64,000 bases of DNA, from NCBI RefSeq assembly GCF_026745355.1, contig NC_079202.1, forward strand, positions 30,252,070-30,316,069, read 5' to 3'. Below are positions 2,566 to 53,672 of this stretch, in pieces. The notes beneath the pieces are model-generated. The model did not search any database. It was not told the origin of the DNA and was given only the letters and a program-made list of their open reading frames with translations. Source of the stretch: Beta vulgaris subsp. vulgaris (taxonomy: Eukaryota; Streptophyta; Magnoliopsida; Caryophyllales; Amaranthaceae). Made by a program: the position numbers and the translations under genes. Within the stretch, counting starts at the first letter, position 1, and every line of letters starts with the position of its first letter.

Positions 2566-2570
2566 CATCT
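2566..2570. repeat. Target site duplication, left copy (catct)
   Basis: The five bases catct stand directly before the TG of the left LTR of the nested gypsy element. The same five bases stand directly after its right end (10513-10517). This defines the nested insertion exactly. Confidence 0.93.
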
Positions 2571-3840
2571 TGGCGAGGCCTAAGTCGTATCGGCTAACGC
2601 GCAAATAAATCAATACTACCCTACATAAACGTAGTATAAGGAAGTAAGGTTCGAATCCACGGAGAAGGTAGGTTTGGTTTGACTAGACGTGTGCTAAGTA
2701 ACAATAGGGGGGTTTAAGGAATGAAATTGAAACAAATAAAGCATAAACAAAGAAAATCAAATAATAAACGAGAACTTGGCAATCAATCTTCACAACCAAT
2801 TCAACCCTTGATCATTGAACAATTTAACACCTAAATTACTTGACGCCCTATTGTGAATCCTAGGATTCAATCCCCCCTAACGTAGTGGTAAGATTAAGCG
2901 AGCGCTCTAATCTGACCCTTAATGGCGTAACAACCTAGCCCGAGCATTCCAGGTTTAATTAAGCAATTAGATAACAACTAGGGAGATTCCAATAGGGTAA
3001 TCTAGCATTCACACAAGCGGTCAAATGCGAAATTATATGATGATTCTTCTTATACTCAATCATCCACGAGCGTGCGATAATTGGGCATAAACTACAAACC
3101 CTAGATAATCTCAAAGCATACAATTATCTAGATAGTAGAGATTGCAATAAGCAAGAAGTTAATTGATCAAGTTAACTTAAGCACAATAACAATCAAACAT
3201 GAAAACAGAAGAATCATCAACATTACATAATTTAAAGAAGAATTGAACTCACAAGTTGATTAAAATGGTTGATTCGATTGATACACCAAGATGGAAGATT
3301 ACTTCCATAATATAAAGATTACAATTTTCTTTGAATTCTCTCTAAAAACAGATGAAAAACGATTCCAAACACAAAGACGAATGTTTTTTATTAGAAAAAT
3401 AGGAGAAGACGAAAAGCCGAATTCCTCGTTAGAGGGCTCCACGACCGCGGAGGGGGTCCGCGCCCGCGGTGAAGTCACGGAGGAGCTCTCGGCACTTTTC
3501 TGCCATAATTCGTCGCGGTCGCAATGAAATCTCCAGCGACCGCGGAGACCTGGCCTTAGCTTCTCATCTCTTCTTGAAAATGACTTACTCATACCAAAAA
3601 TACTCATGAAGCACGCATTTCACTTCCTTGCTTCACTAAGATAACTCTACAAAGAGTTTCTTCGACATGCTAACTTTCCAACTACTTGAACTTTCTCCAA
3701 CACAAATGAGCTCAAATGATTAAAAAGAGCAAATTACAACATAGCAGAGAAAAAGATCAATATCATTGCAAAACTTGTGTCAAATCCCATTAGTAAGTAT
3801 TGAAAAAGTGTCAAGAATGCCATATAAACATGGCATATCA
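2571..3840 (-). repeat. 3' LTR of the nested gypsy element (1270 bp)
   Basis: It begins tggcgaggcctaag and ends catggcatatca on the plus strand, giving TG..CA on either strand. It is nearly identical to 7851-9132 and 9203-10512. It contains a GC-rich block with repeated cgaccgcgg/ccgcggt (3449-3545). It lacks part of the block present in the other two copies, which explains most of the length difference. Confidence 0.93.
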
Positions 3841-7661: not shown

Positions 7662-7828
7662 GGAACTGACCCCAAATCTCCTTCCTCAACCTATAAAGTG
7701 TCCTTTCGATCTCTGAATCAAACAACAAAGATCTAATATGAGAAGCACGGGTGTGAACCATAAGACGGGTTCACACACCAATAACAAAAGCAAACAAACA
7801 CACAAAAAACAACCCCAACTTGCTTCCT

Positions 7829-7846
7829 TCCCCGGCAACGGCGCCA
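7829..7846 (-). other. Primer binding site, tRNA-Asp type
   Basis: On the minus strand the 18 bases read TGGCGCCGTTGCCGGGGA. This is complementary to the 3' end of plant tRNA-Asp. It lies four bases (aatt) from the LTR at 7851. Confidence 0.9.
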
Positions 7847-7850
7847 AATT

Positions 7851-9132
7851 TAGCGAGGCCTAAGTCGTATCGGCTAACGTGCAAATAAATCAATACTACC
7901 CTACACAAACGTAGTATAAGGAAGTAAGGTTCGAATCCATGGAGAAGGTAGGTTTGGTTTGACTAGATGTGTGCTAAGTAACAATAAAGGGGGGGGGGTT
8001 TAAGGAATGAAATTGAAACAAATAAAGAATAAACAAAGAAAATCAAATAATAAACGAGAACTTAGCAATCAATCTTCACAACCAATTCAACCCTTGATCA
8101 TTGAACAATTTAACACCTAAGTTACTTGAACGCCCTATTGTGAATCATAGGATTCAATCTCCCCTAACGTAGTGGTAAGATTAAGCGAGCGCTCTAATTT
8201 GATCCTTAATGGCGTAACAACCTAGCCCGAGCGTTCCAGGTTTAATTAAGCAATTAGATAACAACTAGGGAGATTACAATAGGGTAATCTAGCATTCACA
8301 CAAGCAGTCAAATGCGAAATTATATGATGATTCTTCTTATACTCAATCATCCACGAGCGTGCGATAATTGGGCATAAACTACAAACCCTAGATAATCTCA
8401 AAGCAGACAATTATCTAGACAGTAGAGATTGCAATAAGCAAGAAGTTAATTGATCAAGTTAACTTAAGCACAAAAACAATCAAACATGAATAACAAGAAG
8501 AATCATCAACATTCAAGCAATTTAAAAGAAGAATTGAACTCACAAGTTGATTAAAATGGTTGATTCGATTGATACACCAAGATGGGAGATTAGCTCTCCA
8601 TAATATAAAGGATTACAATATTTTCTTTGAATTCTCTCTAAAAACAGATGAAAAACGATGTCCCAGCACACAAGACGAAGTGCTCTTTTTATCAGGAAAA
8701 TAGGAGAAGACGAAAAGCCGAATTCCTCGTTATAGGGCTCCACGACCGCGGAGGAAAGCACCGCGACCGCGGAAAGGGTCCGCGCCCGCGGTGTAGTCGC
8801 GGAGGAGCTCTCGGCACTTTTCTGCCATAATTCGTCGCGGCCGCAATGAAATCTCCAGCGACCGCGGAGACCTGGCCTTAGCTTCTCATCTCTTCTTGAA
8901 AATGACTTACTCATACCAAAAATACTCACGAAGCACGCATTTCACTTCCTTGCTTCACTTAGATAACTCTACAAAGAGTTTCTTCGACATGCTAACTTTC
9001 CAACTTGAACTTTCTCCAACAAAAATGAGCTCAAATGATTAAAAAGAGCAAATTACAACATAGCAGAGAAAAAGATCTATATCATTGCAAAACTTGTGTC
9101 AAATCCCATTAGTAAGTAGTGAAAAAGTGTCA
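7851..9132 (-). repeat. Extra, internally placed LTR copy of the nested gypsy element (lacks its outer ~26 bp)
   Basis: It aligns with 9203-10486 but starts tagcgagg instead of tggcgagg. It stops at aaaaagtgtcaa, where the full LTR would continue gaatgccatataaacatgacatatca. At that point it runs directly into a copy of the element's own leader. It therefore has no proper TG..CA ends and cannot be an independently inserted LTR. Confidence 0.9.
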
Positions 9133-9202
9133 ACAACAAAAGCAAACAAACACACAAATAACAACCCAAACTTGCTGCCTTCCCCGGCAACGGCGCCAAA
9201 TT
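9133..9202 (-). repeat. Duplicated leader and PBS stub between the two tandem LTRs
   Basis: The sequence caaaagcaaacaaacacac to the tRNA-Asp PBS (9181-9198) repeats 7788-7850. It is the first ~70 bp of the element's internal region. Its join to the truncated LTR shares only the bases caa. Confidence 0.88.
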
Positions 9203-10512
9203 TGGCGAGGCCTAAGCCATATCGGCTAACGCGCAAATAAATCAATACTACCCTACACAAACGTAGTATAAGGAAGTAAGGTTCGAATCCACGGAGAAGG
9301 TAGGTTTGGTTTGACTAGACGTGTGCTAAGTAACAATAAAGGGGGGGGGGGGTTAAGGAATAAAATCGAAACAAATAAAGCATAAACAAAGAAAATCAAA
9401 TAATAAACGAGAACTTGGCAATCAATCTTCACAACCAATTCAACCCTTGATCATTGAACAATTTAACACCTAAGTTAATTGAACGCCCTATTGTGAATCA
9501 TAGGATTCAATCTCCCCTAACATAGTGGTAAGATTAAGCGAGCGCTCTAATCTGACCCTTAATGGCGTAACAACCTAGCCCGAGCATTCCAGGTTTAATT
9601 AAGCACTTAGATAACAACTAGGGAGATTCCAATAGGGTAATCTAGCATTCACACAAGTGGTCAAATGCGAAATTATATGATGATTCTTCTTATACTCAAT
9701 CATCCACGAGCGTGCGATAATTGGGCATAAACTACAAACCCTAGATAATCTCAAAGCATACAATTATCTAGATAGTAGAGATTGCAATAAGCAAGAAGTT
9801 AATTGATTAAGTTAACTTAAGCACAAAAACAATCAAACATGAATAACAAGAAGAATCATCAACATTCATGCAATTTAAAAGAAGAATTGAACTCACAAGT
9901 TGATTAAAATGGTTGATTCGATTGATACACTAAGATGGGAGATTAGCTCTCCATAATATAAAGGATTACAATATTTTCTTTGAATTCTCTCTAAAAACAG
10001 ATGAAAAACGATGTCCCGACACACAAGACGAAGTGTTCTTTTTATCAGAAAAATAGGAGAAGACGAAAAGCCGAATTCCTCGTTACAGGGCACCGCGACC
10101 GCGGAGGAAAGCACTGCGACCGCGGAGGGGGTCCGCGCCCGAGGTGAAGTCGCGGAGGAGCTCTCGGCACTATCTGCCATAATTCATCGCGGCCGCAATG
10201 AAATCTCCAGCGACCGCGGAGACCTGGCCTTAGCATCTCATCTCTTCTTGAAAATGACTTACTCATACCAAAAAATACTCACAAAGCACGCATTTCACTT
10301 CCTTGCTTCACTAAGATAACTCTACAAAGAGTTTCTTCGACAAGCTAACTTTCCAGCTTGAACTTTCTCCAACATAAATGAGCTCAAATGATTAAAAAGA
10401 GCAAATTACAACATAGCAGAGAAAAATATCAATATCATTGCAAAATTTGTGTCAAATCCCATTAGTAAGTAGTGAAAAAGTGTCAAGAATGCCATATAAA
10501 CATGACATATCA
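9203..10512 (-). repeat. 5' LTR of the nested gypsy element (1310 bp, full length)
   Basis: It begins tggcgaggcctaag and ends tgacatatca, followed by the catct duplication at 10513-10517. The GC-rich palindromic block lies at 10083-10220. On the minus strand it is followed by an AT-rich stretch with a weak TATA-like run (gataaaaaga, near 10040). Confidence 0.93.
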
Positions 10513-10517
10513 CATCT

Positions 10518-12872
10518 ATTCTATAACAGGCTTCCTCTAGCATGAGACTTTTCAAAGCATTGGTCAAACTAAAAGTCACCTTATCATCTCCCACAGTCAA
10601 AGTCAATTTCCCATTTTTAACATCTATGACAGCTCCAGCAGTATGAAGGAATGGTCTCCCTAAGATGATTGGGATTTTAGTATCCTCTCCCATGTCAAGC
10701 ACAACAAAATCCACAGGAATATAAAATTTACCTACCCTCACAGGAACGTCCTCTAAGATACCTAGGGGGGTATTTAACAGAACGGTCGGTCATTTGAAGA
10801 GTAATGTTGGTATGTTTTAAATCTCTCATGTCAAGCTTTTTGCAAACAGTCAGGGGCATGACACTAACACTAGCACCTAGATCACATAAGGCTTTGTCAA
10901 TAAAAATGGTGCTAATATTATAAGGGAAGGAGAAACTCCCCGAATCTTTCAATTTAGGAGGGGACTGATTTTGCAAAAGAGCACTACATTCTTCAGTAAA
11001 GGCAACAGTTTCTACTGCCTTCATAGTCAAAATTTCCTTCAAAAATTTAGCATATGCAGGTACTTGAGTAATAAGTTCAGTAAATGGGACAGTTACCTGA
11101 AGATTTTTCACTACCTCCATAAACTTACCAAGTTGGTGATCCAGCTTATTGTTTGATAGACGAGTGGGGAATGGTACCTTTATCGCAGGAGTGGTAGATG
11201 AAATTTTTTCAGGTATCATCTGCTTCTCGGCATTTGTGTTGGTGGTAGCCTCAGGAGCTGGCGAAGTTTCAGTTACGTCTGCATTTTTTTCTGGCTCAAC
11301 CGGACCATTCTTAGGCATTGGGAGACCATCATAATGTGTTCCACTCCTAAGAGTGATGGCATTAGCAGTGTCCCTTGGTTGCATTGAATGTGAAGGTAAG
11401 GCCCCATGTGGCCTACTAGCAGAAGAACTAGCCAACCGAGCTAGTTGAATCTCCAACATCTTGTTATGCGTGCCCAAATTTTCCAGTTGAGCTTTTGTGT
11501 CAGCTTGAAAAGTGTTGAACCCTTTCTGCATCTGGAACATCATATTCTTCAAATCTGTCGCGGCTGGGTCAGCAGTAGGAGCAGGTTGTTGAGGTGCTTG
11601 ATTTCTCTGAAAACCAGGTGGAGCTTGTTGTGGAGGTTGATATTGTTGACCCTGTTATTGAGGCGCATATGGTTATTGAGGCGGAGGGTTCAACACATTA
11701 GTACTCCTATATGAAAGGTTTGGATGGTGTCTCAAGCCAGGATTATAGGTGTTGGAATATGGGTTGAACTGGTTCCTAGGTTGTGACTGGAAAGCATTAA
11801 CTGCCTCACAGTTATTCCCTAGCGCAAGACACTCTTGAGAGTTGTGTCGAGGTATTCCACAGGCATCACAAAGGTGAACATTGTAGTTAGAAGTACTAGC
11901 CATAGCGTTAACAGTCATGTGGGGGGAGTCATTACTCAACTTCAAAGAATCAATCTTTTGAGTGAAAGCAGCTAGTTGCCCAGACAGTAAGGAAATGGCT
12001 TCAACATCATGTTTACCTCCCTTTTTCAAAGAGGAATGAATGGTATATGCTTGATTAGATGCTAGCTTCTCCAAAAGTTCATACCCCTCCTCAATCGCTT
12101 TATCGATGAAGAACCCACCGGATGCTCCATCAATTACTCGTCGTGTATCTGCATCAACTCTAGTGTAGAAAATATGACACAAATACCACTGGTCCAGACC
12201 ATGATGAGGACAGAGACGCGGCAGATCCTTGAACTGCTCCCAAGCTTCATATAAAGACTCACCAGGATCTTGGGTGAAAGTAACTATGGCATGTCTCATA
12301 TCGGCAGTTTTCTGGTAAGGGTACCACTTGATATAAAGACTCACCAGAATATTTGAAAGTTCTGGCAAGGTGGTGATGGTGGAAAGCAGCTTATTATACC
12401 TGAATAAAGCTTTATCGCACAGAGAGAAACCAAATAGAAGGAGTTTCATCTCATCAGGAGTAACACCAGCTTGTTTCTGAGTAGCACAACACTGTAAGAA
12501 TCTCTGCAGGTGCTGATTTGGGTCTTCAGATGGTAACCCAACGAACTGATTGTTCAGAACCATATTCAGAACAAGAGACTTGATCTCAAAATTTGTAGCA
12601 GCAATAGTAGGCATCCATACCCCAGTAGGCCCATTATCAGGACATGGTTGTGCATAGTCTCGGAAGGTTCGTGTAACATTCTCACCCATATTGAGAGTAA
12701 TAGGTAAGGTGGGGGATTCTTGGTGTGGGGAAGGTGGTCGAGAAGGTGTCTTTTGGGAGGGTGTCCCTGCAGACAGCTTAGCTTGCTTAGTTTTCTTTCT
12801 GAGTCTACGAGCGGTCTTTTCAATCTCCGGATTGAACGGGATGAGATTTGGAGATTTCAATTTCCTGCTCAT
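10518..12872 (-). pseudogene. gag and protease of the outer gypsy element (broken)
   Basis: The ORF 12872-11673 starts MSRKLKSPNL and holds the gag domain (FEIKSLVLNMV, SLYEAWEQFKDL, RVIDGASGGFF), then a CCHC knuckle (CDACGIPRHNSQEC, near 11860). A stop falls at about 11655-11670. The reading resumes at 11552-10728 with a coiled linker and retropepsin (CDLGASVSVMPL). A run of six G at 10767-10772 coincides with a frame change, after which the protease continues (IPIILGRPFLHTAG) to the nested insertion at 10512. Confidence 0.88.
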
Positions 12873-17671: not shown

Positions 17672-17962
17672 AGGGCATGTTCTCTCCAGCTTATTTTCAG
17701 TTCAGTTCAGTTCAGTTCAATTCAGTTCAGTTCAATTCAGTTCAATTCAGTTCAGTTCAATTCAATTCAGTTCAGATCAGTTCAGTTCAGACCAGTTCAG
17801 TTCATTTCAGCTCTTGACAATACTTTTACTCTCACATATCACTATTCATTTCAGTTCAGTTCAATTCAGTTCAGTTCAGATTAGTTCAGTTCAGATCAGT
17901 TCAGTTCAATTCAATTCAGTTCAGTTCAGTTCAGTTGTTTTATGCCGAACAGAACAGGCCCT
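17672..17962. mobile_element. MITE-like element filled with (TTCAG/TTCAA)n
   Basis: The ends are agggcatgttct and agaacaggccct, a 12-bp inverted repeat with one mismatch. The inside (17695-17935) is almost wholly built from ttcag and ttcaa units in one orientation, broken by a unique stretch at 17805-17850. No convincing target duplication was found, so the boundaries are tentative. Confidence 0.6.
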
Positions 17963-23455: not shown

Positions 23456-24180
23456 TGTAGGAGTTAAGGCTTGGAAAAGCCTTGGCTCATTTTCTTGTTT
23501 GTCCCACATCGCTTGTGGGAGGGAGTTTTCTCATGTTTATATACTTCCTCCCTCCTTCCATCTATTGAGTTGTGACTAGAGATGCTTTTGTGGTTGGATG
23601 ATATGTTGGGTTTGGGCTTGCTATCACACACGCGCGCCGCCCGCCCGGACCGGGCCAGGGCCATGGGCCATGGGCCATGGGCCTTGGGCCTTGGGCCTTG
23701 GGCCTTGGGCCTTGGGCCTTGGGCCTTGGGCCTTGGGCCTTGGGCCTTGGGCTTAACTTAACTAAAGTTTTGGACCCGGGAGCTACGCGTATGTGGCCGT
23801 TGGAATTCTGTAACGTTTTACCGTTACAGTATTCATGGCAATCCCTAATTATCCGCCATTGATTTCTGTCTTGATTACTATCCGTTTTTTGGCTTGATTC
23901 TTCCCTATAAAATCAGAGCCATTCTGTTCAGTCAGAAACACACAAAACAACAAACACTCTTCTCTCTTCTCTTTTCTCTTCCTGGGTTTTCGTGCTATTC
24001 TCTAAAGCTTAGTTTGCTAGTGGTGGCATTCTGAGCTACTGTGTTAACCTTGGGGAGCATTCCGGCCAAGATCGATAACCACCAGTGTCGGGCCGTAATC
24101 GCTTTCAAGTCAGTGATCTCCTATCACGGCACAGTATTTGAAAGCTTATTTTCTGCCTTTGCGAACCGATTATTCCAACA
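23456..24180 (+). repeat. 5' LTR of Copia A
   Basis: 725 bp. It holds a block of repeated gggccatgggcc/gggccttgggcc words (23645-23752), a TATA box (tataaaa, 23906-23912) and a CT-rich transcript start region. At 24095-24108 it holds gtaatcgctttcaa, which is complementary to the bases just after the LTR. Confidence 0.95.
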
Positions 24181-24196
24181 ATTTGAAAGCGATTAC
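24181..24196 (+). promoter_or_regulatory. Non-canonical primer-binding position of Copia A, complementary to the LTR
   Basis: The bases directly after the LTR, atttgaaagcgattac, contain no TGG and match no tRNA 3' end that I recognise. Fourteen of them (24183-24196) are the exact reverse complement of 24095-24108 inside the LTR. With one G-U pair and one more A-U pair the stem extends to 16 bp, so the 3' side of the LTR segment abuts the LTR end. gag starts at 24208, only 27 nt after the LTR. Confidence 0.75.
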
Positions 24197-24207
24197 TAAT
24201 ATTTGCA

Positions 24208-27200
24208 ATGGCAGAAAGTTCAACCAAATCAATGGCTCACCTGTCCAAACTTGAGTCCCTTGATGGAAATAACTACAAACGCTGGGCTCAAAAACTTCTT
24301 ATGTTTTTCGAGCAACTGGATATTGACTATGTCTTGTTCAGTGACTGTCCCACTGCCATTACGGCTACTGCTGATTCAATTCTCCTTCTGCTGCTGTCAT
24401 TAAACAGAATGAGGATAAAATTCTGAAATATGAAAAAGATAATAAAACAGTTCGTTTCCATCTCCTTAATCTGATGACTAATAATTTGTTTGATTTGTTC
24501 ATGGTTCATAAGTCATCAAACTGATTTGGGAGGCCCTTGAGAAAAAATATGGGGATGATGTGCTGGGAAACAGAAATACGTTGTAGGAAAGTGGCTGGCT
24601 TTCCAAATGGTTGATGACAAACCTGTCATGGACCAAGTTCATGTCTATGAGAATCTGTGTGCTGATGTTTTAAATGAGGACATGAAAATTTGTGAGGTTT
24701 TAGGCCAATGTTCTGCTGGAAAAGTTTCCTCCTTCCTGGAGGGAGTTCCGTAACAATCTGAAACATAGGAAAGAGTTCCTGTCTCTTCAGGATCTAATCA
24801 GTCACATGAGGATCGAAGAGGCCAACCGAATCAAGGATAATCAGGACTCGGTTCTTGTCAATGTTACCAAAGCCAATCTGGTGGAATCTGCTGCTGCGCC
24901 AGGTTCTGACAAGTTCAAGGGTAAGGGTAAGAAGGTGTTCAACAAGGGTAAGAAGCAAGGAAAAGTGAACAAACCAAGTGGTAAGATTCAAAAGAACTTT
25001 TGTATGCTATGTGTGTGGAAAGCCTGATCATAAGGCTTACCAATTCCTCAACGCCAAGGTTCTGTCCAAAAAGAAACTCCTCAAGCTAACCTTGCTGTTT
25101 CGGATGAATTATTGCTGCTGTGGTTGTTGAAGCAAATCTGGTCGAAAATCGTTCTGACTGGATTTGGACACCGGGGCTTCAAGGCATTTCTGTTCGAACA
25201 AGGAGCTGCTCCATGACTTCCAGGATGCAACAGAAGGTGAGTGCGTCTACATGGGGAAGCAGCAACTGCTGGAGTGCTTGGACATGGAAAGGTCACTCTA
25301 AAACTTACCTCTGGAAAAACCCTCTCCCTTTCAAATGTCTTGTATGTTCCTACTATGCGTCGTAACCTAGTGTCTGGTGCCTTGTTAAACAAAGCTGGTT
25401 TGAAAATTGTTTTTGAGGCTGACAAGGTTGTAATGACTCGTGGTGGGGAATTTGTGGGGAAAGGGTATCTGAGTGGGGGTTTGTTTATTTTAAATGTTGC
25501 TTCTTCTGTATCTGCTATTAATAAAACTGTTTGTGGTTCTGCTTATATTGCTGAGTCTTTAAATTTATGGCACGGTAGATTAGGACATGTGAATGTTGCT
25601 TCTATTAAGAGACTAAGGACCTTAGAATTGATTCCTAATCTGTCCTCAACCGAGTTTTCTAAGTGTCCTATTTGTGTTGAAGCAAAATTTACCAAGAAAC
25701 CTTGCAAAACTGTGACTCAAAGGACCACCCAACTTCTAGAATTGGTTCATACAGACTTAGCTGACTTTCAGAACACTAGAAGTAGAGGAGGAAAATTCTG
25801 GTATATTTCCTTTGTTGATGATTACTCGAGGTTCACTAAGTTATACCTTCTTAAGACCAAAAGTGAGGCAGGGGAAGCTTTTTTGAAGTATAAGGCCGAG
25901 GTAGAAAACCAACTTGATAGGAAAATCAAGAGGGTTAGGTCTGATAGGGGTAGAGAATATGAGAACTTCTCTTGGAATGACCATTGTGAGAAATTGGGAA
26001 TCATTCATGAACTTAGTGCTCCTTATGTACCCCAACAAAATGGTATAGCTGAAAGGAAAAATAGGTCCTTGAAAAATATGATGAATGCTATGCTTGTAAG
26101 TTCTGGGTTGCCTGATGAAATGTGGGGGGAAGCTGTTCTTTCAGCTTGTCATGTTCTTAACCGAGTTCCTCACAAAAGATTAGATAAGACCCCTTATGAG
26201 CTATGGAAGGGTTATCCTCCAAACTTGAGTTTTCTAGAGTGTGGGGGTGTCTAGCCAAAGTTGGGCTTCCTGACTATAAAAAGTCAAACATAGGACCTAA
26301 GACTTTTGATGCTGTATTCATTGGTTATGCTCATGCTGCATATAGATTCATGTCTTTGAGTGATAGGTCTATCTGTGAGTACAGAGATGCTGAGTTTTTT
26401 GAACATGTTTTTCCTTTGAAAAAAGGTGATGTTGCATCTGTGCCTTCTTGTTCTTCTCCTGCTGTTGATTTATCTACTTGTTCTACGCATGATGTTCTAC
26501 CTACTGTGATACTCCTGCTGATTTGACTTTGAGTAGTAGTTCAGTTGACATGCATGCTAGTAGTTCTCTGTCGTAGATGAGCCTAGGAGAAGTAAGAGAC
26601 CTAGAGTAGCAAAAGACTTTGGTTCTGATTTTGTTACTGCTTTTCTATCTGAAAGTTCTTGTGTTGACTTGTTGAGTGATGAACTAGTTTATGCTTTCAT
26701 GATAGAAGAGGACCCAAAGACCTTTGATGAGGCAATGAGATCTGTGGATGCCAGTTTTTGGAAAGAGGCCATTAAGAGCGAGTTAGATTCCATAGTGTCT
26801 AACTCTACTTGGGAGTTGACTGACTTACCTAAGGGATCAAAGACCATAGATAGTAAATGGATCTTTAAAAAGAAATTGAGACCTGATGGAACTATGAGAG
26901 GTTTAAAGCTAGGCTTGTCATCAGGGGCTTCACTCAGAGGAAAGGACTAGATTACTTTGACACTTATTCTCCTGTGACTAAGATAGCCACTATTAGGACC
27001 CTGCTTGCTCTTGCTGCTATTCATGACTTAGTTATACATCAGATGGATGTTAAGACTGCTTTCCTGAATGGTGACTTAGAGGAGGAGATTTACATGTCTC
27101 AACCTGAGGGTTTCGTGGTGTTAGGTCAAGAAGATAAAGTGTGCAAATTGAGGAAGTCCTTATATGGTCTCAAACAAGCACCAAAACAATGGTATGAAAA

Positions 27201-28248
27201 ATTTGATAGTACTGTGGGTCAAATGGTTTCATTGTAAACAATTCTGATTCTTGTGTTTATTCAAAATTGATAGGATCAGATTGTGTGATTATATGTCTTT
27301 ATGTGGATGACATGCTGATTTTTGGTAACAACTTAAAGGTGGTTAATGATACTAAACTTTTCTTGTCTTCAAAATTTGAGATGAAAGATTTGGGGGAAGC
27401 TGATGTGATTTTAGGAGTCAGACTTAAGAGAGTCTCCGGTCGCATTTCCCTTAGCCAGTCTCATTATGTGGAAAAGGTGCTTAAAAAGTTTAATTCCTTT
27501 GATGTTGTTCCAGTGAGTTCTCCCTATGATTCTAGTATTCATTTGACCAAGAACTTAGGTGAAAGTGTCTCTCAAAGTGAATATGCGAAAATCATAGGTA
27601 GTTTGATGTACCTCATGAACTGTACTCGACCTGACATAGCTTATGCAGTGAGTAGACTTAGTAGATATACACATAACCCTAGTAATGAACACTGGAGTGC
27701 CTTCATCGTCTTCTCAGATACCTAAAAGGAACTGTTGATTTTTGTTTGCACTATTCTAAATTTCCTGCTGTTCTTGAAGGATTTTGTGATGCAAACTGGG
27801 TATCTGGTAATGATGAGATCAGTTCAACTAGTGGCTATGTGTTTACCCTTGGTGGTGGTGCTATATCGTGGAAGTCTTCGAAACAGACTTGTATAGCACG
27901 TTCCACCATGGAGTCTGAGTTCATTGCCCTCGAGTTGGCAGGGCAAGAAGCTGAATGGTTGAGAAACTTGTTGTCTGATGTTCCTTATGGGGTGGACAGA
28001 GTTCACCTGTCTCTCTTCATTGTGATTCTCAAGCAGCCATTGGTGTTGCTAAGAACAGTGTCTACAATGGTAAGAAGAGACACATACGGATCAGACATGG
28101 AGTCGTCAAACAACTCCTGAAAAATGGGGTGATTTCTTTGGACTATGTGAGGTCCGAAAGAAATCTTGCAGACCCCTTTACTAAGGGGTTATCTAGGAGA
28201 GTTGTCCTAGAGTCGTCGAGGGGGATGGGGCTAAAGCCCATTAGTTGA
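24208..28248 (+). pseudogene. Copia A polyprotein (gag-protease-integrase-RT-RNase H), frameshifted
   Basis: It starts MAESSTKSMAHLSKL, with the gag text NNYKRWAQKLLMFF. A zinc knuckle is degraded near 25005-25040 (CGKPDHKAYQF, last Cys lost). The integrase (25571-26254) has HGRLGHVN, HTDL, SDRGREY and PQQNGIAERKNR, so the Asp, Asp and Glu are all present. RT begins near 26850 ([16 protein letters not shown]; catalytic YVDDM at 27301-27315). RNase H (27780-28245) shows GFCDANW, the start of SMTMESEF-like [10 protein letters not shown], and LADPFTKG. At least six frame changes break it, including ones near 24385, 25060, 26255, 27230 and 27725. Confidence 0.92.
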
Positions 28249-28784
28249 GATCTTATGGTGGATACCCGTTTGTGGTCAAACGAAGCCATGAAATCTTAAC
28301 TTGCACTACATTTCCCATCCCTATGACACATGGTAGTGCTTTTATCCATAGCCTATTGGTGGTGCTTCTGAGACGCACTTGATGGATATACATTGAGAGG
28401 TTGAGCATTTTGCTCTTAATAGTTCCATATCCCTTCGGGGTGGTGTTATTGAGAAACACTTGATGGACTACCTACGTAAGTGTGGAGGTTAAGCCGCCTT
28501 CTATGAAAGACTGGGCTGTCTTTCTAGAGCACTTATTAGACCCAAGGAACGCATGGCTATAAAGCGCTTGTGATGTATCGCGGAGATTGCACGATCTTAA
28601 GGTAGGTATGTGTTGTGGGGTCTCAACGGAACTCTGGTGAGTTCAAGAGTAATTCACTCACTAGATAGTAAGTTGTTGCCTCATTTCACTATGCATCAAT
28701 TCAAATCGAAAGATATTGGTGCTTAAGTACTTTCCTTTCCTTACCCAGGAATTTCTTTTGCTTTTCTGAGCCTTTGTGGGGGAT
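28249..28784 (+). other. 3' untranslated region and polypurine tract of Copia A
   Basis: Non-coding. It ends tttgtgggggat just before the 3' LTR, a purine run fitting the plus-strand primer. Confidence 0.7.
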
Positions 28785-29520
28785 TGTAGGAGTTAAGGCT
28801 TGGAAAAGCCTTGGCTCATTTTCTTGTTTGTCCCACATTGCTTGTGGGAGGGATTTTCTCATGTTTATATACTTCCTCCCTCCTTCCATCTATTGAGTTG
28901 TGACTAGAGATGCTTTTGTGGTTGGATGATATGTTGGGTTTGGGCTTGCTATCACACACGCGCGCGCCGCCCGCCCGGACCGGGCCAGGGCCATGGGCCA
29001 TGGGCCATGGGCCTTGGGCCTTGGGCCATGGGCCTTGGGCCTTGGGCCTTGGGCCTTGGGCCTTGGGCCTTGGGCTTTGGGCTTTGGGGAATAAACTTAA
29101 CTTAACTAAAGTTTTGGACCCGGGAGCTACGCGTATGTGGCCGTTGGAATTCTGTAACGTTTTACCGTTACAGTATTCATGGCAATCCCTAATTATCCGC
29201 CCATTGATTTCTGTCTTGATTACTATCCGTTTTTTGGCTTGATTCTTCCCTATAAAATCAGAGCCATTCTGTTCAGTCAGAAACACACAAAACAACAAAC
29301 ACTCTTCTCTCTTCTCTTTTCTCTTCCTGGGTTTTCGTGCTATTCTCTAAAGCTTAGTTTGCTAGTGGTGGCATTCTGAGCTACTGTGTTAACCTTGGGG
29401 AGCATTCCGGCCAAGATCGATAACCACCAGTGTCGGGCCGTCTTTCAAGTCAGTGATCTCCTATCACGGCACAGTATTTGAAAGCTTATTTTCTGCCTTT
29501 GCGAACCGATTATTCCAACA
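28785..29520 (+). repeat. 3' LTR of Copia A
   Basis: 736 bp, nearly identical to 23456-24180. The GGGCC-type block (28985-29085) is of slightly different composition and length. The segment matching 24091-24110 reads ggccgtctttcaagt (29437-29450 region) and lacks the five bases aatcg. Confidence 0.95.
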
Positions 29521-43683: not shown

Positions 43684-44436
43684 TGTTGGAACATTTATAG
43701 GGTAATGGGTTTGAAACTCATATGGGTATGTACTAGAAGAGGAGGAGGTCTAGTATGCAAAAGGCTAGAGTGCATCAAGTGGCAAAACGCATTGATCAAC
43801 CAAGGGAGACAGAAGACTGGCCGCGAGTCGCGACAACCGTCGCGAGTCGCGACCAGTGGCCCGTCGCGATTCGCGACAGGCGTCGCGGGTCGCGACCAGC
43901 GCCTCGCGACTCGCGAGCCTTTTCGCGAGTCGCGACGTGTCTTCTGCCTTGGAATGCGAAAATATGCCTTGACGGTTTTATGTCCGTTGTGATGTTATGG
44001 TCTCATTTTAATGACCTTTAAGGTCCTTAAATCAGTAGATTAAAGGCCTTTGATGGGTGATTAAAATGGGGGTTATGGGTTTAACTACTCGAGTCAATGA
44101 AAGGTTTATTTTTTTTTTATATAAACCTTGGGATTCCTATGAGTGAGGGGTTAGAAGAAAAATCAGATTTTCTATACTCTCAAAAAAAACCTTCTTGTTT
44201 TGCTTAAGAGAAACCTTGCAATCTTCTCTTGAGTGTTCTTCACAAACACAAAAACACAAGTTCTTGTTGATTCACTTAGAAGATCATCTAAGTGGATTGT
44301 TTCTCTCCATTGTATTTCATTAGTTATTTCGTGTTAACCCGGTGATCCTAGAGGGGCGAAATTAAACTAATAGGAAAGCGTAGTTTCCTTGCCTTGGAGT
44401 GGATATCCGGTTCTCTCATTGATCACACATCTAACA
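43684..44436 (+). repeat. 5' LTR of Copia B
   Basis: 753 bp. It holds a GC-rich block of tcgcgagtcgcgac words (43818-43940), a TATA box (tatataaa, 44118-44125) and, at 44358-44373, the segment gaaattaaactaatag, complementary to the bases that follow the LTR. Confidence 0.95.
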
Positions 44437-44460
44437 ATCTATTAGTTTAATTTCCCCTTT
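44437..44460 (+). promoter_or_regulatory. Non-canonical primer-binding position of Copia B, complementary to the LTR
   Basis: After the LTR come two bases (at) and then ctattagtttaatttc (44439-44454), the exact reverse complement of 44358-44373 (16 bp). If one base (c44357) is bulged, the pairing continues for about five more bases (aggg/ccct). No TGG or known tRNA complement is present. gag starts at 44467, 30 nt after the LTR. The same LTR segment is kept in the 3' LTR (49611-49626). Confidence 0.8.
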
Positions 44461-44466
44461 TCGGAT

Positions 44467-47400
44467 ATGGCTCAAACACTCAAGGACATGACTATGAACT
44501 TCCAAAAGTTGGATAAGTTTGAGGGGGTGGCCTATCGTAGGTGGCAAAAGAAGATGCACTTCTTGTTGACCGCCTTGAATGTGGTGTATGTTTATCAACT
44601 CCTATGCCACCACTCCCGGAAGATGGAGAGGAAGAGCCTCTTGAGACTACTAGGAAGAGGATAAAGTGGGAGAATGATGACTACATTTGTCGTGGTCATA
44701 TTCTCAACTCTCTCACCGACCCGTTGTTTGATCTCTACCAAAATGTGGAGAGTGCAAAGGAACTTTGGGATGCTCTTGAGGCCAAGTACATTTCGGAAGA
44801 TGCTTCAAGTAAGAAATTCCTTGTTAGTAATTTTAATTCTTTTAAAATGACTAATGATCGGCCTATTATGGAGCAATTCCATGAGGTTCATCATATTTTG
44901 AACCAAATAAGATCACATGGTATGGTGATGGATGAGGCAATTGCGGTTGCCTCAATCATTGACAAATTACCAAATTCTTGGAAAGATACAAAACATCTTT
45001 TAAAACATAAAAAGGAAGACATGTCCATGGAGCAATTAGGAACTCATCTTCGTATTGAAGAGGGGATCCGGGCTCAAGATGGGGTTAAGGATACTACTCC
45101 TAGTATTCCTAAATCTACCGTTAATTTGGTAGAGGTTGGTGGGTCTAGTAAGACCAAGAAATCCAACAACAACAAACAAATAACAAAACCAATGTTGCAA
45201 ACAAGAAGAGGAAGACCCTCTCTTGTTGGATATGCAATGGTCCTCATCTTAAGAGGGATTGTCCTTCTAACAACAAGAAGAAGACAAAGAACACACAACC
45301 TAGTGTTGTTCAAAACCAAGGTAACAATGCACATGTTAATGTAATTGAAGAAATGCATTTTGTTGCTATGATTTCTGAAATTATGTGTGTGCAGGTTGAT
45401 GATTCTTGGTGGATAGATTCGGGAGCCTCTAGACATGTGTGCAATAACAAGGATTTCTTCAAGTCTTTGAAAGATTTGGATGATGGTCCAATCTTGTATA
45501 TGGGGAATGATTCTACGGTAAAGGCTAGAGGCATAGGCCAAGTAGAATTGTTGTTAACCTCGGGAAAGACTTTAACTCTCCGGGATGTTGTGTATGTACC
45601 GGAAGTTAGGAAGAATCTTGTGTCAGGAGGTCTCTTGAATAAGTATGGTTTTAAAGTTGTTTTTGAGTCGGATAAATTTGTACTTTCCAAGGGTGGTATT
45701 TTTGTTGGACAAGGTTTCTTTTGTAATGGAATGTTTAAATTTAGTATTGATAATAAAATTGGTACTAGTTCTATTTACATGCTTGATGTTTCTTCTCTAT
45801 GGCACAATCGTTTATGTCATGTGAATTATCGTAGATTATATGACATGTCTAAAATGGGGTTGATACCTCCTTTCGATTTAAAGTTAGAGAAGTGTCACAC
45901 TTGCGTGCTAAATAAAATTACAAAAAATCCTTATCCTAGTGTGACTAGACAAACGGTATTGCTTGAATTGGTGCATAGTGACTTGTGTGACTTTCATAGT
46001 TCACCTTCTTTAGGAAATAAAAATATATTGTAACTTTTATTGATGATTTTTCAAGGTTTTGTTACATATATTTATTATTTACTAAAGATGAAGCACTAGA
46101 AAAGTTTAAGACCTTTAAAATCGAAGTGGAACTCCAACTTAATCAAAAGATTAAAAGACTTCGAACGGATAGGGGTGGTGAATATTATAATCCAAGTTAT
46201 TTTAGTTCCATTGGTGTAATTCATGAAACAACCGCCCCATACTCACCTCAAAGTAATGGTATAGCGGAAAGGAAAAATAGGGTCCTAAAAGAAATGGTTA
46301 ATACATGCTTTCTAATTCGGGTCTTAATGACGGTTTTTGGGGTGATGCAATTTTAACTGCATGTTACATTTTAAATCGAGTTCCTAATAAAAGGAATAAG
46401 ACTACCCCTTATGAACTTTGGTGTAATAAAAAGCCTAATCTCAATTACCTTAAGGTATGGGGTTGTAGGGCAATTGTCAAATTGACGGAACCTAAAAGGA
46501 AAACTTTAGGTGAAAAAGGAATTGATTGCATTTTTATAGGCTATGCGGTACATAGCAAAGCCTATAGGTTTTATGTCATTGAGCCCAATGACTTTGTCTC
46601 TATTCACTCCGTGATAGAGTCAAGGGATGCAATATTTGATGAGACTAGATTCTCATCGATTCCAAGACCAAAGGACATGATACCTAGTACTAGTTCCAAT
46701 GTTGTAGATGACATTTCAAATGATCATGATACTACAACACCGGAAATTAGGAAAAGTAAACGAATTAGAAAAGAGAAATCTTTTGGACCGGATTTTCAAC
46801 TATATTTAGTTGAAGGGTCAAGGGAGTCAATTTCGACTCAAATTTCATATTGTTACAATATGGAGGAGGATCCTAGGTCCTTTGATGAGGCTATGAAGTC
46901 TCATGATTCTGCTTTCTGGAAAGAGGCAGTGAATGATGAAATGGATTCTATAATGGGTAATCACACTTGGATTTTAGCTAATTTACCTCCCGGTTGCAAA
47001 CCCCTAGGTTGTAAATGGATTTTTGTAAGGAAAAAGAAAATCGATGGAACCATACTAAAACATAAGGCCCGGTTAGTGGTCCAAGGTTTTAGGCAAAGAT
47101 ATGGTATCGATTACTTTGATACTTATGCTCCAGTAGCTAGAATAGCTACTATTAGACTATTGATAGCATTAGCTGCGATTCATGGTCTAGTAATTCACCA
47201 AATGGATGTAAAAACTGCTTTTCTTAATGGTGAATTGGAGGAGGAAGTGTACATGAATCAACCTGAAGGGTTTGTGGTTAAAGGTCAAGAAACTAAAGTT
47301 TGAAATTAGTTAGATCTTTGTATGGTCTTAAACAAGCACCTAAGCAATGGCATCAAAAATTTGATGAAGTTGTGTTGTCTAGTGGGTTCAAAATAAATCA

Positions 47401-48438
47401 GTCCGATAAGTGTGTATATAGCAAATTTGATAATAACGGTAAAGGAGTTATAATTTGCTTATATGTTGATGATATGCTTATTTTTGGGACTGATTTGGAA
47501 CAAGTGGAAAAGACCAAAGTCTTCCTTTCCTCTAGCTTCTCCATGAAAGATTTGGGTGAAGCGGATGTTATTCTAGGTATTAGAATAATAAGAGGGAAAG
47601 GGTCGTTTTCTTTATCACAATCTCATTATATTGAGAAAGTGGTCAAGAGGTATAATGAGTCAAATTCGACTCATTTTGCTACTCCTATGGATCCTAGTAT
47701 TCATTGGTTCCGAGTAGTGGTACTCCAATTTCACAATTGGAGTATGCAAGCTTAATTGGAAGCTTGATGTATGCTATGACTAGCACTCGGCCGGATATAG
47801 CCTTTGCTATTGGCAAGCTCAGTAGGTATACTAGTAATCCTAGTATGTTGCATTGGCAAGCATTGAGAAGAGTGTTAAGGTACTTGAATAAGACCTTGGA
47901 TTATGTCATAACATACAATAGAGAACCTTCTATCTTAGAAGGTTACTCGGATGCTAGTTGGATTTCGAATAAGGAAGATTATTCATCCACTAGTGGTTGG
48001 GTGTTTCTTCTTGGAGGAGGTGCCATTTCATGGGCTTCCAAGAAGCAAACATGTATAACGGATTCCACTATGGCATCGGAATTCATTGCTTTGGCTTCTT
48101 GTTGCCAAGAAGCGGAATGGCTAAGGAATGTGTTGAGTGAGGTGGACTTATGGGTGAAACCAATGTCACCTCTTGCTATCCATTGTGATAGTGCATCAAC
48201 CATAGCTAAAGCATATAGTGAAGTCTACAATGGCAAGTCAAGGCACATTGGAGTTAGACATAGCTATGTGCGGGAAATGATAAGGAATAGTTGTATAACT
48301 ATTAATTTTGTTCGGTCTAGTTTGAACTTGGCGGATACGTTTACAAAACCGTTGTCAAGGGAACTAGTGAACAAAATGAACAAAGGGATGGGTCTTAAGC
48401 CTATTGATCAACCTATGGTGAAGGAAAACTCTATTTGA
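44467..48438 (+). pseudogene. Copia B polyprotein, lightly damaged
   Basis: It starts MAQTLKDMTMNFQKLDKF. gag runs to about 45190, and a zinc knuckle CWICNGPHLKRDC lies at 45226-45264. Protease WWIDSGASRHV is at 45409-45441 with the catalytic Asp intact. Integrase: LWHNRLCHVN (45801), HSDL, RTDRGGEY and PQSNGIAERKNR (Asp, Asp, Glu present). [29 protein letters not shown] and catalytic YVDDM (47461-47475). RNase H: GYSDASW, STMASEFIAL and LADTFTKPL, ending at 48438. Frame changes lie near 44560, 45190, 46033, 46310, 47303 and 47705; the rest is open. Confidence 0.93.
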
Positions 48439-48947
48439 TGTCTAATACAACGTTAGATCTCAAATTCAAGGAGGATAGTACTTCTCTAAGAGGTTGGGAG
48501 CACTTGTTTAATACATCCCGAGGTTAGTGCTTGTTGCTACAATGATAAAGAGGTTGAATTTTATTCTTAATAAATCTTTGATAAGGTGCTCAATTGTAGG
48601 AGCATGTCCGGAAAGATTTACCTATGTAAGCTAGAAGTTTGGCCGCTTCATCAAGTCTTAGGCTTGACTTGGAATGCTTATGAATGGATATGGACACCAA
48701 GGCTTCATAGGTGTCGGAGGTTTTAAGAACCTAGTTTATGTTTGTGTGTATTAGTAACTTCAATAATTTGTAATGGTTATATGATTCAAAGCTTTGTCTA
48801 TCATTATGATCTAAATTATTGTAAAGATTACTTTTACTAAATGGAAATTCAATCGTTAGATATTTCCATGATGCATGAACATGTGTGTTTGCGATTTATA
48901 GCAAGTTGAAAAACTTTTCAACATTACCCTATAAATGGGAGGAGGAT
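48439..48947 (+). other. 3' untranslated region and polypurine tract of Copia B
   Basis: Non-coding. It ends aatgggaggaggat right before the 3' LTR, a clear polypurine tract. Confidence 0.75.
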
Positions 48948-49689
48948 TGTTGGAACATTTATAGGGTAATGGGTTTGAAACTCATAAGGGTATGTACTAG
49001 AAGAGGAGGAGGTCTAGTATGCAAAAGGCTAGAGTGCATCAAGTGGCAAAACGCATTGATAAACCAAGGGAGACAGAAGACTGGCCGCGAGTCGCGACAA
49101 CCGTCGCGAGTCGCGACCAGTGGCCCGTCGCGAGTCGCGACAGGCGTCGCGGGTCGCGACCAGCGCCTCGCGACTCGCGAGCTTTTCGCGAGTCGCGACG
49201 TGTCTTCTGCCTTGGAATGCGAAAAGATGCCTTGACGGTTTTATGTCCGTTGTGATGTTATGGCCTCATTTTAATGACCTTTAAGGTCCTTAAATCAGCT
49301 GATTAAAGGCCTTTGATGGGTGATTAAAATGGGGGTTATGGTTAACTACTCTAGTCAATGAAAGGTTTATTTTCCTATATAAACCTTGGGATTCCTATGA
49401 GTGAAGGGTTGAAGAAAAATCAGAATTTTCTATACTCTCAAATACTTCTTGCTTAGCTTAAGAGAAAACTTGCAATCTTCTCTTGAGTGTTCTTCACAAA
49501 CACAAAACACAAGTTCTTGTTGATTCACTTAGAAGATCATCTAAGTGGATTGTTTCTCTCCATTGTATCTCATTAGTTATTTCGTGTTAACCCGGTGATC
49601 CTAGAGGGGCGAAATTAAACTAATAGGAAAGCGTAGTTTCCGTGCCTTGGAGTGGATATCCGGTTCTCTCATTGATCACACATCTAACA
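48948..49689 (+). repeat. 3' LTR of Copia B
   Basis: 742 bp, almost the same as 43684-44436. It includes the tcgcgagtcgcgac block (49084-49203) and the gaaattaaactaatag segment (49611-49626). Confidence 0.95.
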
Positions 49690-49923: not shown

Positions 49924-50360
49924 TGTCTCTGTCTAGATATTAAGGATGCTAATGTGTGCTGAGAGACTTGAGGTAGGCCCCAAGAAGGTACGCCTGAGCT
50001 CCGTTATCCGTACGTCGGAATGCTGCAAAACAAGGTTAGCCTACCCCGGGGGTGGTCTCGGGATCGCCCCTCCGACGCTCAAGTCAGTAAATGATAAGAC
50101 AACCCTTATTTATAGTTGTAGAGAGAAAGTGATCACCATAGAGAGAAAGTGATCACTGTAGAGAGAGATGCTCTGGGTTTTGTAGCTTAGAATAGCTTAC
50201 CTTTGTCTGATGAGACAACCCTTATTTATAGAGGATAGGAGCCCCAATAAATGAGGGTATTTTAGTCATCTCCTGTTGGTGGAGGGTTGGCTTCCCTAGA
50301 TGTAGGGGTATTTTAGTAACTTTACAATAAGTGGGCTGGTCCAGGAAATGGGCTCAAACA
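49924..50360 (-). repeat. 3' LTR of the gene-less LTR element
   Basis: 437 bp, matching 53250-53672. It carries an extra copy of the TATA-region bases (gacaacccttatttatag at 50098-50115 and again at 50214-50231), while the other LTR has one copy. Confidence 0.88.
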
Positions 50361-50549: not shown

Positions 50550-51400
50550 TTTTTGAAGTATAGGCTGGCTGAGTGGCCGAGTAGCCCCCTCAGCCTTGCC
50601 GACCGGGTGCCCTGGTTAAGAGTCCGACCAGGTATCGTGGTCGAGAGGGCCGACCAGGTGCTTTGGTTGAGGGGTCGACCTGGTGCCTTGGTCGAGATGC
50701 CGACTGGGTGCTTGAGGCTAGCCGACCGCGGGCATTTGAGGTTGGCCGAGCTTCCGTTCGAGGATGAAAGATCGAGTTGAGTTGATGCTCTGGTCGAGCC
50801 GGTGCATTGATGCTGGCCGACCGGTTACTCGAGGTTGGCCGACCGAGGGCCTTTGAGGTTGGCCGAGCCGCTGCTCGAGGATGGCTGACCGGGTCGAGTT
50901 GGTGCCCTGACCGAGATTGCCAGACGCGCTCATTGGCCGACTTGGCCGAGTAGGTCCGAGACGGCCGAGGCGGGTGAATTAGCTGACTGGCCGAGTAGCT
51001 CCCTTGAGCCGAGTGGCCGACCAGGTGTCGCGGCCGAGTACTTCGGAAAGGTGCATTGCCCGACTGGCCAAGCGGGGTGCCATGGCCGATTGGCCGAGTA
51101 GCTCCCTTGAGCCGAGGGGCGGACCAGGTGCCGAGGCCGAGTGGGTCGGAAGGGCGCATTGCCCGACTAGCCGAGCGGGGTGCCATGGCTGCCTGGCCGA
51201 GTGGAGTAACATGGCCAAGCGGGCGCATTGGCCGACTGGCCGAGCAAGTGCATTGGCCGAGTGGCCGAGCGGGTGCCATGGCGGAGTAGGTCTGAGCCGA
51301 CTGGCTTCTTATCCTTTTGGGCTTCCTTGTGCCGAAAGGGTCGGAGGCCACTCGGATGAGGGGCTAATGAGCCCCATGCTGTCCAAGCGGGTGCCAATGA
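50550..51400. repeat. Imperfect repeats of ggccgagtgg/ggtgcc words
   Basis: GC-rich, built of short words (gccgagtggccgag, gaccaggtgcc, cgagcgggtgcc). Because stop codons are rare in these words, long frames stay open on both strands (for example 51351-50590). These are not taken as genes. Confidence 0.85.
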
Positions 51401-52275
51401 GGTACTTAGATTGAAATTGGCTAAGGACGAGAGCGACTCGTCAAAAGAGAGTGGGTCTCCTAGTGGCCGAGCAGGTCGAACGCCACTCGGATGAGAGGCT
51501 AATGAGCCTCATGTTGTCCGAGTGGGTGTCAATGAAGTACTTAGCTTAAATTTGGCTAAGTATGAGAGCGACTCGTCAAAGGAGAGGGGATCTCCTAGTG
51601 GTCGAGCGGGTCGGACGCCACTCGGATGAGGGGCTAATGAGCCCCATGCTGTCCGAGTGGGTGCCAATAAACTACGTAGCTTGAATTTGGCTAAGGATGA
51701 GAGCGACTCGTCAAAGGAGAGGGGGTCTCCTAGTGGCCGAGCGGGTCGGACGCCACTCGGATGAAAGGCTAATGAGCCTCATGCTGTCCGAGTGGGTGCC
51801 AATGAAGTACTTAGTTTGAATTTGGATAAGTATGAGAGCGACTCGTCAAAGGAGAGGGGGTCTCCTAGTGGCCGAGCGGGTCGGACGCCACTCGGAAGAG
51901 GGGCTAATGAGCCCCATGGTGCCCGAGCGGGTGCCAATGAGGTACTTAGCTTGAAATTGGCTAAGGATGAGAGCGACTCGTCAAAGGAGAGGGGGTCTCA
52001 TAGTGGCCGAGCGAGTCGGACGCCACTGGGATGAGAGGCCAATGAGCCTCATGCTGTCCGAGAGGGTGCCAATGAAGTACTTAGATTGAATTTGGCTAAA
52101 GATGAGAGCGACTCGTCAAAGGATAGGGGGTCTCCTAGTGTCCGAGTGGGTCGGACGCCACTCGAATGAGGGGCTAATGAGCCCCCTGTTGTCCGAGTGG
52201 GTGCCAATGAAGTACTTAGCTTGAATTTGGCTCAGTATGAGAGCGGCTCGTCAAAGGAGAGTCGGCTATGTTAGT
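51385..52275. repeat. Tandem array of seven 135-bp units
   Basis: The word gagagcgactcgtcaaa recurs at about 51430, 51565, 51700, 51835, 51970, 52105 and 52239, a period of 135 bp. Each unit also has agtacttagcttgaa, ggtctcctagtggccgag and cgccactcggatgag. The period equals 45 codons; a two-unit plus-strand frame (51792-52034) shows a 45-residue repeat, but stops in other units argue against a protein. Confidence 0.92.
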
Positions 52276-53230
52276 GAGATTTCCCCCTCATGACTGAGGA
52301 GGTGCCATGGCGAAATTCTCGCCTTTTGAGTCTCCTTTTGCTCCCCTTTTTTGACCTGATAGTCTTCGAGGTATTAAGGCTTTTGATGGTGTGCCTTTGA
52401 AGCTTGAGATAAATTTTTCATTGGTTGAGTAGGCATCCAAGGACGAGTAGATGCCCCGGTTGAGTAAGCACCCAAGGATGAGTGTGTACATTTAAGGAGT
52501 AGGTACTGTTGATGAGTTGGTGCCTTCGATGATGAGTAGGCACATCTAGTTGAGTATATTCTTTTGGCCGAGTTGGGACCCAAGGATGAGTGGATACCTT
52601 GAATGAGTAGATATCGTTGATGAGTCGGTCCCTTTGATGTATAGGCACCTTTGGCTGAACTATGCCATAAACTTGAGGGTGCCACTGTTTATTCTGGAGG
52701 GGTTTTACGGTTCCGAGTGACATCACCCCTTGTTCAGATCAGTCTTCATGGGTTGTGTTCTTCGATACAACTTGTTTGAGTGATAACATGTTTTTCCCTT
52801 TTCAGGGTTGACGCAGTCCTTCCCTCTGTTTAGGTCCCAGCCGGCTAGGCTGAGCATTTCGGGAGGGACGAATGATCTCGTTATGACGAGTGAAAACCAT
52901 ACTCATCCGGCTTTGCTGGAGAGTTTGTTGGAGATGAGCTGCAATCAAGGTAATGTTGTTTGTAGTTATGGGTGGAGGGTCAGCTGCTTATGTTGGACCC
53001 GATGCCGCGGGATGAACGACTTCATGATGAGTTCCCCATTGGGGTAGAACCCTAATTGGGATAGAGGGATAACACCGTGAGTGCATATGGGATGCTTGAG
53101 CTCTCCCGGAATGGTTGGCTTTGGATCGTGTCTTCTTGGTTGGGGTCATTATTGAGCAATAATGAGGTGAGTTTTGTTGAGTAGCAACAAGGTGAATCTT
53201 GCTGAATGGTGGCGAAGTAACTTCTTGTAC
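52276..53230. other. Rest of the internal region of the gene-less LTR element
   Basis: 52400-52680 holds looser repeats of gatgagtaggcacc and ggttgagtaggc type (about 25-35 bp). 52806-52950 is a unique stretch with splice-like borders on the plus strand (cccttttcag, caaggtaatg), possibly a captured exon, but of no known family. Confidence 0.55.
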
Positions 53231-53249: not shown

Positions 53250-53672
53250 TGTTTCTGTCTAGAAATTAAGGATGCTAATGTGTGCTGAGAGACTTGATGT
53301 AGGTCCCAAGAAGGTACGCCTGAGCTCTGTTATCTGTACGTCGGAATCCTGCAAAACAAGGTTAGCCTACCTCGGGGGTGGTCCCGGGATCGCCCCTCCG
53401 ACGCTCAAGTCAGTAAATGATTGAGGTAAAGAGAGAAAGTGATCACTGTAGAGAGAGAAAGTGATCACTGTAGAGAGAGATGCTCCGAATTTTGTAGCTT
53501 AGAATTGCTTACCTTTGTCTGATGAGACAACACTTATTTATAGAGGATAGAAGCCCCAATAAACGAGGGTATTTTAGTCACCTCCTGCTGATGGAGGGTT
53601 GGCTTTCCTAGATGTAGGGGTGTTTTAGTAACTTTGTCATAAGTGGGCTGGTCCAGGAAATGGGCCCAAACA
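53250..53672 (-). repeat. 5' LTR of the gene-less LTR element
   Basis: 423 bp, tgtttctgtctag to gggcccaaaca, with two agagagaaagtgatcactgt repeats near 53430-53475. Confidence 0.88.

Follow-up and report, generated by a model that had tools for sequence, protein, structure and literature searches.

Plant Ty1/copia elements of the lineage TAR have been predicted to prime their own reverse transcription (Neumann et al. 2019; PMC6317226), in a study whose dataset comprised domains of 5410 plant Ty1/copia elements and which cites an earlier self-priming proposal for Houba and Osr-1. For self-priming in TAR, that study required 10 bp or more, beginning 0–5 bp past the LTR, to be complementary to the 5' LTR. 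Outside this superfamily, the Tf1/sushi (and Tcn1) chromoviruses, which are Ty3/gypsy elements, self-prime reverse transcription through an LTR-adjacent primer-binding site (PBS) that complements the element's own RNA. In the Tf1 leader, the sequences next to the PBS pair in two side duplexes with the part of the LTR that follows the primer (PMC10085805). The fungal GalEa copia elements have no tRNA PBS and carry a hairpin in its place; this Conserved Hairpin Site spans 9 bp and forms a palindrome together with the final A of the LTR, and the authors of PMC5445492 did not find a U5 complement of it.

We analysed a window of 64,000 nucleotides of Beta vulgaris subsp. vulgaris, meaning the whole stretch of DNA presented here, and compared two of its insertions with these systems. 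Both insertions, termed Copia B and Copia A, are Ty1/copia elements, and in each of them the sequence two bases past the 5' LTR complements a segment of that same LTR. We put the probability at about 0.8 that Copia B and Copia A would start minus-strand synthesis from their own RNA and not from a tRNA, a reading that is built on sequence complementarity. Copia B occupies positions 43684–49689 and has the following features:

43684..44436, plus strand: 5' LTR of Copia B, TGTTGG...TAACA, sharing 96.0% identity with the 3' LTR (blastn, 756 alignment columns)
44118..44125, plus strand: TATA box-like TATATAAA, a motif from which a start near 44150 is predicted
44358..44373, plus strand: candidate self-primer segment GAAATTAAACTAATAG, by sequence complementarity
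44437..44438, plus strand: spacer of two bases (AT) separating the LTR from the PBS, as in Copia A
44439..44454, plus strand: putative PBS CTATTAGTTTAATTTC, exact 16-nt reverse complement of 44358–44373
44467..44469, plus strand: gag start codon, in a frame that is interrupted further on
48948..49689, plus strand: 3' LTR of Copia B, TGTTGG...TAACA, holding the uninterrupted primer segment at 49611–49626

The 5-bp flanks of the insertion are AAGTT and AATTT, which are identical at 4/5 positions. An initial annotation of this DNA had described the 16-nt complement, the 65-nt loop from primer segment to PBS, the 30 nt from the LTR end (44436) to the gag ATG (44467) and the retention of the segment in the 3' LTR, and all of these were reproduced when recomputed. 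It had also reported an extension of the pairing by about five bases with one bulge. The bulge was recovered, but the extension proved longer: beyond the 16 nt, a bulged C is followed by 7 pairs, including two G-U, then by a mismatch and 4 more pairs, giving 11 further pairs between 44345–44356 and 44455–44466. A gag domain was detected in a different frame, from 44541. Repeated G+C-rich palindromic TCGCGAGTCGCGA motifs lie in the U3 part of the LTR, at 43840–43916 and 49104–49180. Like GalEa, Copia B and Copia A lack a tRNA PBS and have a hairpin in its place. Copia B differs from GalEa in having a 16-nt U5 complement and no Conserved Hairpin Site palindrome, the sequence at 44436–44445 being the non-palindromic AATCTATTAG.

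Most plant copia lineages are primed by tRNA-Met, and half-tRNAs prime Bianca and Osser (PMC6317226). A host tRNA, a tRNA half or another small RNA might likewise prime Copia B and Copia A, the LTR complement then having some other role. We consider this very unlikely. TGG is absent from the first 30 nt downstream of the Copia B 5' LTR, as had been claimed, and from the first 27 nt downstream of the Copia A 5' LTR, so that no 3'-CCA tRNA end pairs at either site. Bianca and Osser resemble Copia A and Copia B as copia elements whose PBS is directed at something other than the 3' end of a tRNA, but they are primed by half-tRNA-Ile or half-tRNA-Met, whereas the best exact match of the PBSs of Copia A and Copia B to the two tRNAs compared (iMet and Ile-AAU) was 3–6 nt, against 14–16 nt for the own LTR. 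A tRNA that pairs better than the 16 nt of the Copia B LTR, which the initial annotation had named as a check, was thus not encountered among these two, and a tRNA primer was rejected on both grounds. Within the window, no tRNA family reached the Rfam gathering score and ARAGORN reported 0 tRNA genes. Moreover, tRNA priming would leave two unrelated exact complements at equal offset unexplained.

The second of these complements lies in Copia A (23456–29520), which is bounded by the 5-bp flanks ATCAT on both sides and has the same arrangement:

23456..24180, plus strand: 5' LTR of Copia A, TGTAGG...CAACA
23906..23911, plus strand: TATA box-like TATAAA, a motif from which a start near 23938 is predicted
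24095..24108, plus strand: candidate self-primer segment GTAATCGCTTTCAA, by sequence complementarity
24183..24196, plus strand: putative PBS, exact 14-nt complement of 24095–24108, after the spacer AT
24202..24219, plus strand: post-PBS stretch around the gag start, pairing with U5 24148–24165; candidate Tf1-like side duplex
28785..29520, plus strand: 3' LTR of Copia A

In the 3' LTR of Copia A the primer segment is disrupted by a 6-nt difference (GCCGTCTTTCAAG in place of GCCGTAATCGCTTTCAAG); this loss counts against the self-priming reading but is probably post-insertion decay. The Copia A LTRs also carry tandem TTGGGCC-type units (23660–23755 and 28985–29090), whose run length differs between the two LTRs, and another TATATA is found at 23538.

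In both elements the complement begins at LTR end + 3, after the spacer AT, and spans 16 nt (Copia B) or 14 nt (Copia A). In a blastn comparison at word size 7 and an E limit of 1, the LTRs of Copia A did not match those of Copia B, and the pairing is therefore kept although the sequence differs. This result, from two elements only, agrees with the covariation of segment and PBS proposed earlier as a check, and the like geometry with different sequence in Copia A strengthens the self-priming reading. The pol pieces of the two elements were 38–78% identical by piece, RT reaching, for instance, 78% in a stretch of 81 aa and 59% in one of 112 aa; gag was less alike (29–32% identity). We scanned 10 open pieces from Copia A and Copia B against Pfam, and 3/10 matched no family. 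The pieces of Copia B matched Retrotran_gag_2, Pol_BBD, gag_pre-integrs, SH3_retrovirus and RVT_2, with no integrase-core match among those scanned, and the pieces of Copia A matched gag_pre-integrs, Pol_BBD, rve and RVT_2.

Such a complement could also have arisen by chance, or when the edge of the LTR was recently duplicated in inverted orientation, and the evidence for self-priming covers n=2 elements, both within the 64-kb window. We compared the observed complements with shuffled sequences: the 40 nt that follow the LTR were left unchanged, and the LTR was shuffled 5000 times with dinucleotides preserved (offsets 0–5). The 16-nt complement of Copia B was reached in 0/5000 shuffled LTRs (longest: 13 nt), and the 14-nt complement of Copia A likewise in 0/5000. 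When the internal region of each element, minus its last 40 bases, was scanned, the PBS was the longest LTR complement in Copia B (16 nt; next independent: 10) and in Copia A (14 nt; next: 11). The plus strand of the window contains 10 perfect inverted repeats of at least 13 nt with a loop of 30–300 nt, and AACAAT (the LTR end plus AT) precedes the 3' arm in two of these ten, those of Copia A and Copia B. The different sequences with an identical spacer in the two elements also speak against chance or duplication, as does the retention of the Copia B segment in both LTRs despite ~4% site differences. We regard an origin of this kind as next to negligible.

With complements of 16 nt (Copia B) and 14 nt (Copia A), each at offset 2, both elements lie within the limits used for TAR. 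They share with TAR (Houba, Osr-1, Fourf) a Ty1/copia pol and an LTR-complementary PBS without a tRNA match, and among the features compared with the available part of the TAR description we found no difference. Most simply, Copia A and Copia B would be two more TAR-type members, a placement drawn from their PBS type. Self-priming in plant copia elements is thus not new but already predicted in print. The initial annotation, which was not aware of such a description for plant copia elements, has been overtaken on this point by the TAR prediction of 2019 (PMC6317226). Its claim to novelty does not hold, but self-priming, as it proposed, remains the reading with the most support, to which Copia A adds. 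Judged by titles and the openings of abstracts, we found no experimental test of plant copia self-priming among the papers listed.

Alternatively, the hairpin could act in the leader without priming, and serve packaging, dimerisation or the translation of gag. Consistent with such a role, the extended stem of Copia B ends at the base preceding the gag start, and the Copia B hairpin pairs in 32/32 combinations of RNA start and end (mean primer:PBS pairing probability 0.81–0.97). The leader of Copia B folded better than its shuffles (z −3.28; 0/100). In Copia A, the primer:PBS hairpin had a probability of 0.99–1.00 in 8/8 contexts ending 20–30 nt past the LTR. However, it dropped to 0.00–0.41 in 23/24 contexts extending further into gag (0.99 in the other one), and this instability in most longer leader contexts argues against a general leader structure. 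The leader fold of Copia A was no better than shuffles (z −0.70; 45/200), and both results for Copia A also weigh against the self-priming reading. Pairing begins exactly 2 bases past the LTR in both elements, a precision that would not be required of a general leader hairpin, and neither element shows another apparent PBS. A leader structure without a priming role is, in our view, unlikely.

In the competing fold of Copia A, U5 24148–24165 pairs with the post-PBS stretch 24202–24219, and in the context 23938–24270 the PBS has no stable partner (best single-partner probability: 0.34). We examined whether the two leaders could form side duplexes of the Tf1 type. The test for a downstream duplex was devised after the alternative fold of Copia A and the Tf1 description were known, and its counts are not blind. 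The U5/post-PBS duplex reached −28.3 kcal/mol in Copia A, a value equalled or bettered by 21 and 5 of 2000 shuffles, and −28.0 kcal/mol in Copia B (199 and 66 of 2000). For the next two 60-nt stretches, used as controls, 511–1434 (Copia A) and 182–1336 (Copia B) of 2000 shuffles were as good, and one Copia B control stretch nearly matched the test duplex (−27.7 vs −28.0 kcal/mol). The folding energies are thus suggestive of a downstream side duplex in Copia A and weak for Copia B. A U5/pre-PBS duplex was unsupported, with 1584 and 1726 (Copia A) and 444 and 577 (Copia B) of 2000 shuffles as good. The full three-duplex fold of Tf1 is therefore not established. If the U5-gag duplex of Copia A formed together with the primer:PBS pairing, the modelled structure would be a pseudoknot resembling the one described in Tf1.

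For self-priming of Copia B and Copia A, we propose the following course. The LTR segment (44358–44373 in Copia B, 24095–24108 in Copia A) would pair with the PBS two bases past the LTR. The element's RNase H would then cut just 3' of the segment, as in Tf1, and the cut would leave a 3' OH from which the copying of U5 could be primed. In a cis form of this model, the cut would make 44374 the 5' end of the template and the first base of R, which would end at the poly(A) site. In a trans form, the primer would be donated by another RNA copy or by the 3' LTR copy.

The TATA motifs at 23906 and 44118 predict starts near 23938 and 44150, which would place both segments well inside the RNA. The distance from TATA motif to segment is 189 nt (Copia A) and 240 nt (Copia B), and the segments lie ~157 nt (Copia A) and ~208 nt (Copia B) inside the TATA-predicted transcript. 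The initial annotation had raised this position as a difficulty for Copia B, and on the TATA prediction it holds for both elements. The predicted TATA positions argue against the segment being the RNA 5' end in either element. This is a difference from Tf1-type elements, whose primer is the RNA 5' end, as against ~160–210 nt inside for Copia A and Copia B. The passages of PMC6317226 consulted give no account of how first-strand transfer would proceed with a primer so distant from the RNA 5' end. A segment far inside the RNA does not exclude the cis model, which would be workable if cleavage sets the 5' end of the template, so that R begins at 44374 and ends at poly(A); the model would require a poly(A) site 3' of the segment. 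A primer well inside the leader, provided by internal cis cleavage or by trans donation and accompanied in Copia A by a pseudoknotted U5-gag duplex, is a tentative proposal to which we give somewhat less than even odds. If true, priming from an internal segment would be a self-priming mechanism distinct from that of Tf1.

Here, a priming mode of plant copia elements was reached from raw sequence, and elsewhere, in the available literature, it also rests on sequence prediction. The window offers two complete examples with defined predicted cut sites. Self-primed elements would need no host tRNA, which may bear on host control via tRNA fragments.

We also searched for relatives of these elements. 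The bare 16-mer occurs in 54 IMG/VR stretches as a sequence match alone, scans of viral contigs at the protein level detected no relatives, and phage records gave no match. Among 4483 protein homologues, the named ones within the best 120 were mostly from Tanacetum and Lactuca, with generic names. From 138 candidate stretches, a GTDB scan yielded four distant loci (L055–L058; 33–48% identity to the query), which are contigs in bacterial MAGs encoding copia-type polyproteins and are likely eukaryotic contamination. Two small linear 'plasmids' of Streptomyces camelliae (L059, NZ_CP115302.1) and Kitasatospora cathayae (L060, NZ_CP115454.1) encode a copia-type reverse transcriptase with 39.8% identity to Copia B; the two share 99.4% identity across 4649 aligned bases and probably represent non-bacterial contamination of the assemblies. 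When the four loci and the two plasmid records were each compared with themselves, L055, L056 and L058 proved to carry repeats close to either end. L056, which has 33% identity to the query and comes from a MAG record with the label Trichormus, has such a near-terminal repeat at 26–166 followed by TGGTATCAGAGCC, which we take to be a tRNA-Met primer site. The longest complement to its own repeat after the repeat end is 4 nt, and L056 thus serves as one non-self-primed control (n=1).

Several other features were observed in the window. Just downstream of Copia B, tandem 135-bp repeats (51331–52305) lie between two similar stretches (49924–50360 and 53250–53672). A repeat of ~1.3 kb is present in three copies (2570–3840, 7779–9133 and 9131–10512), the last two of which are adjacent. 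LTR edges were sought in the pair 49924–50360/53250–53672 and in the three 1.3-kb repeats, with no usable PBS junction found. A TTCAG-type 5-bp repeat array extends over 17696–17936, and the plant C/D box snoRNA snoR71 is located at 12196–12302 (Rfam RF00097, 48.5 bits).
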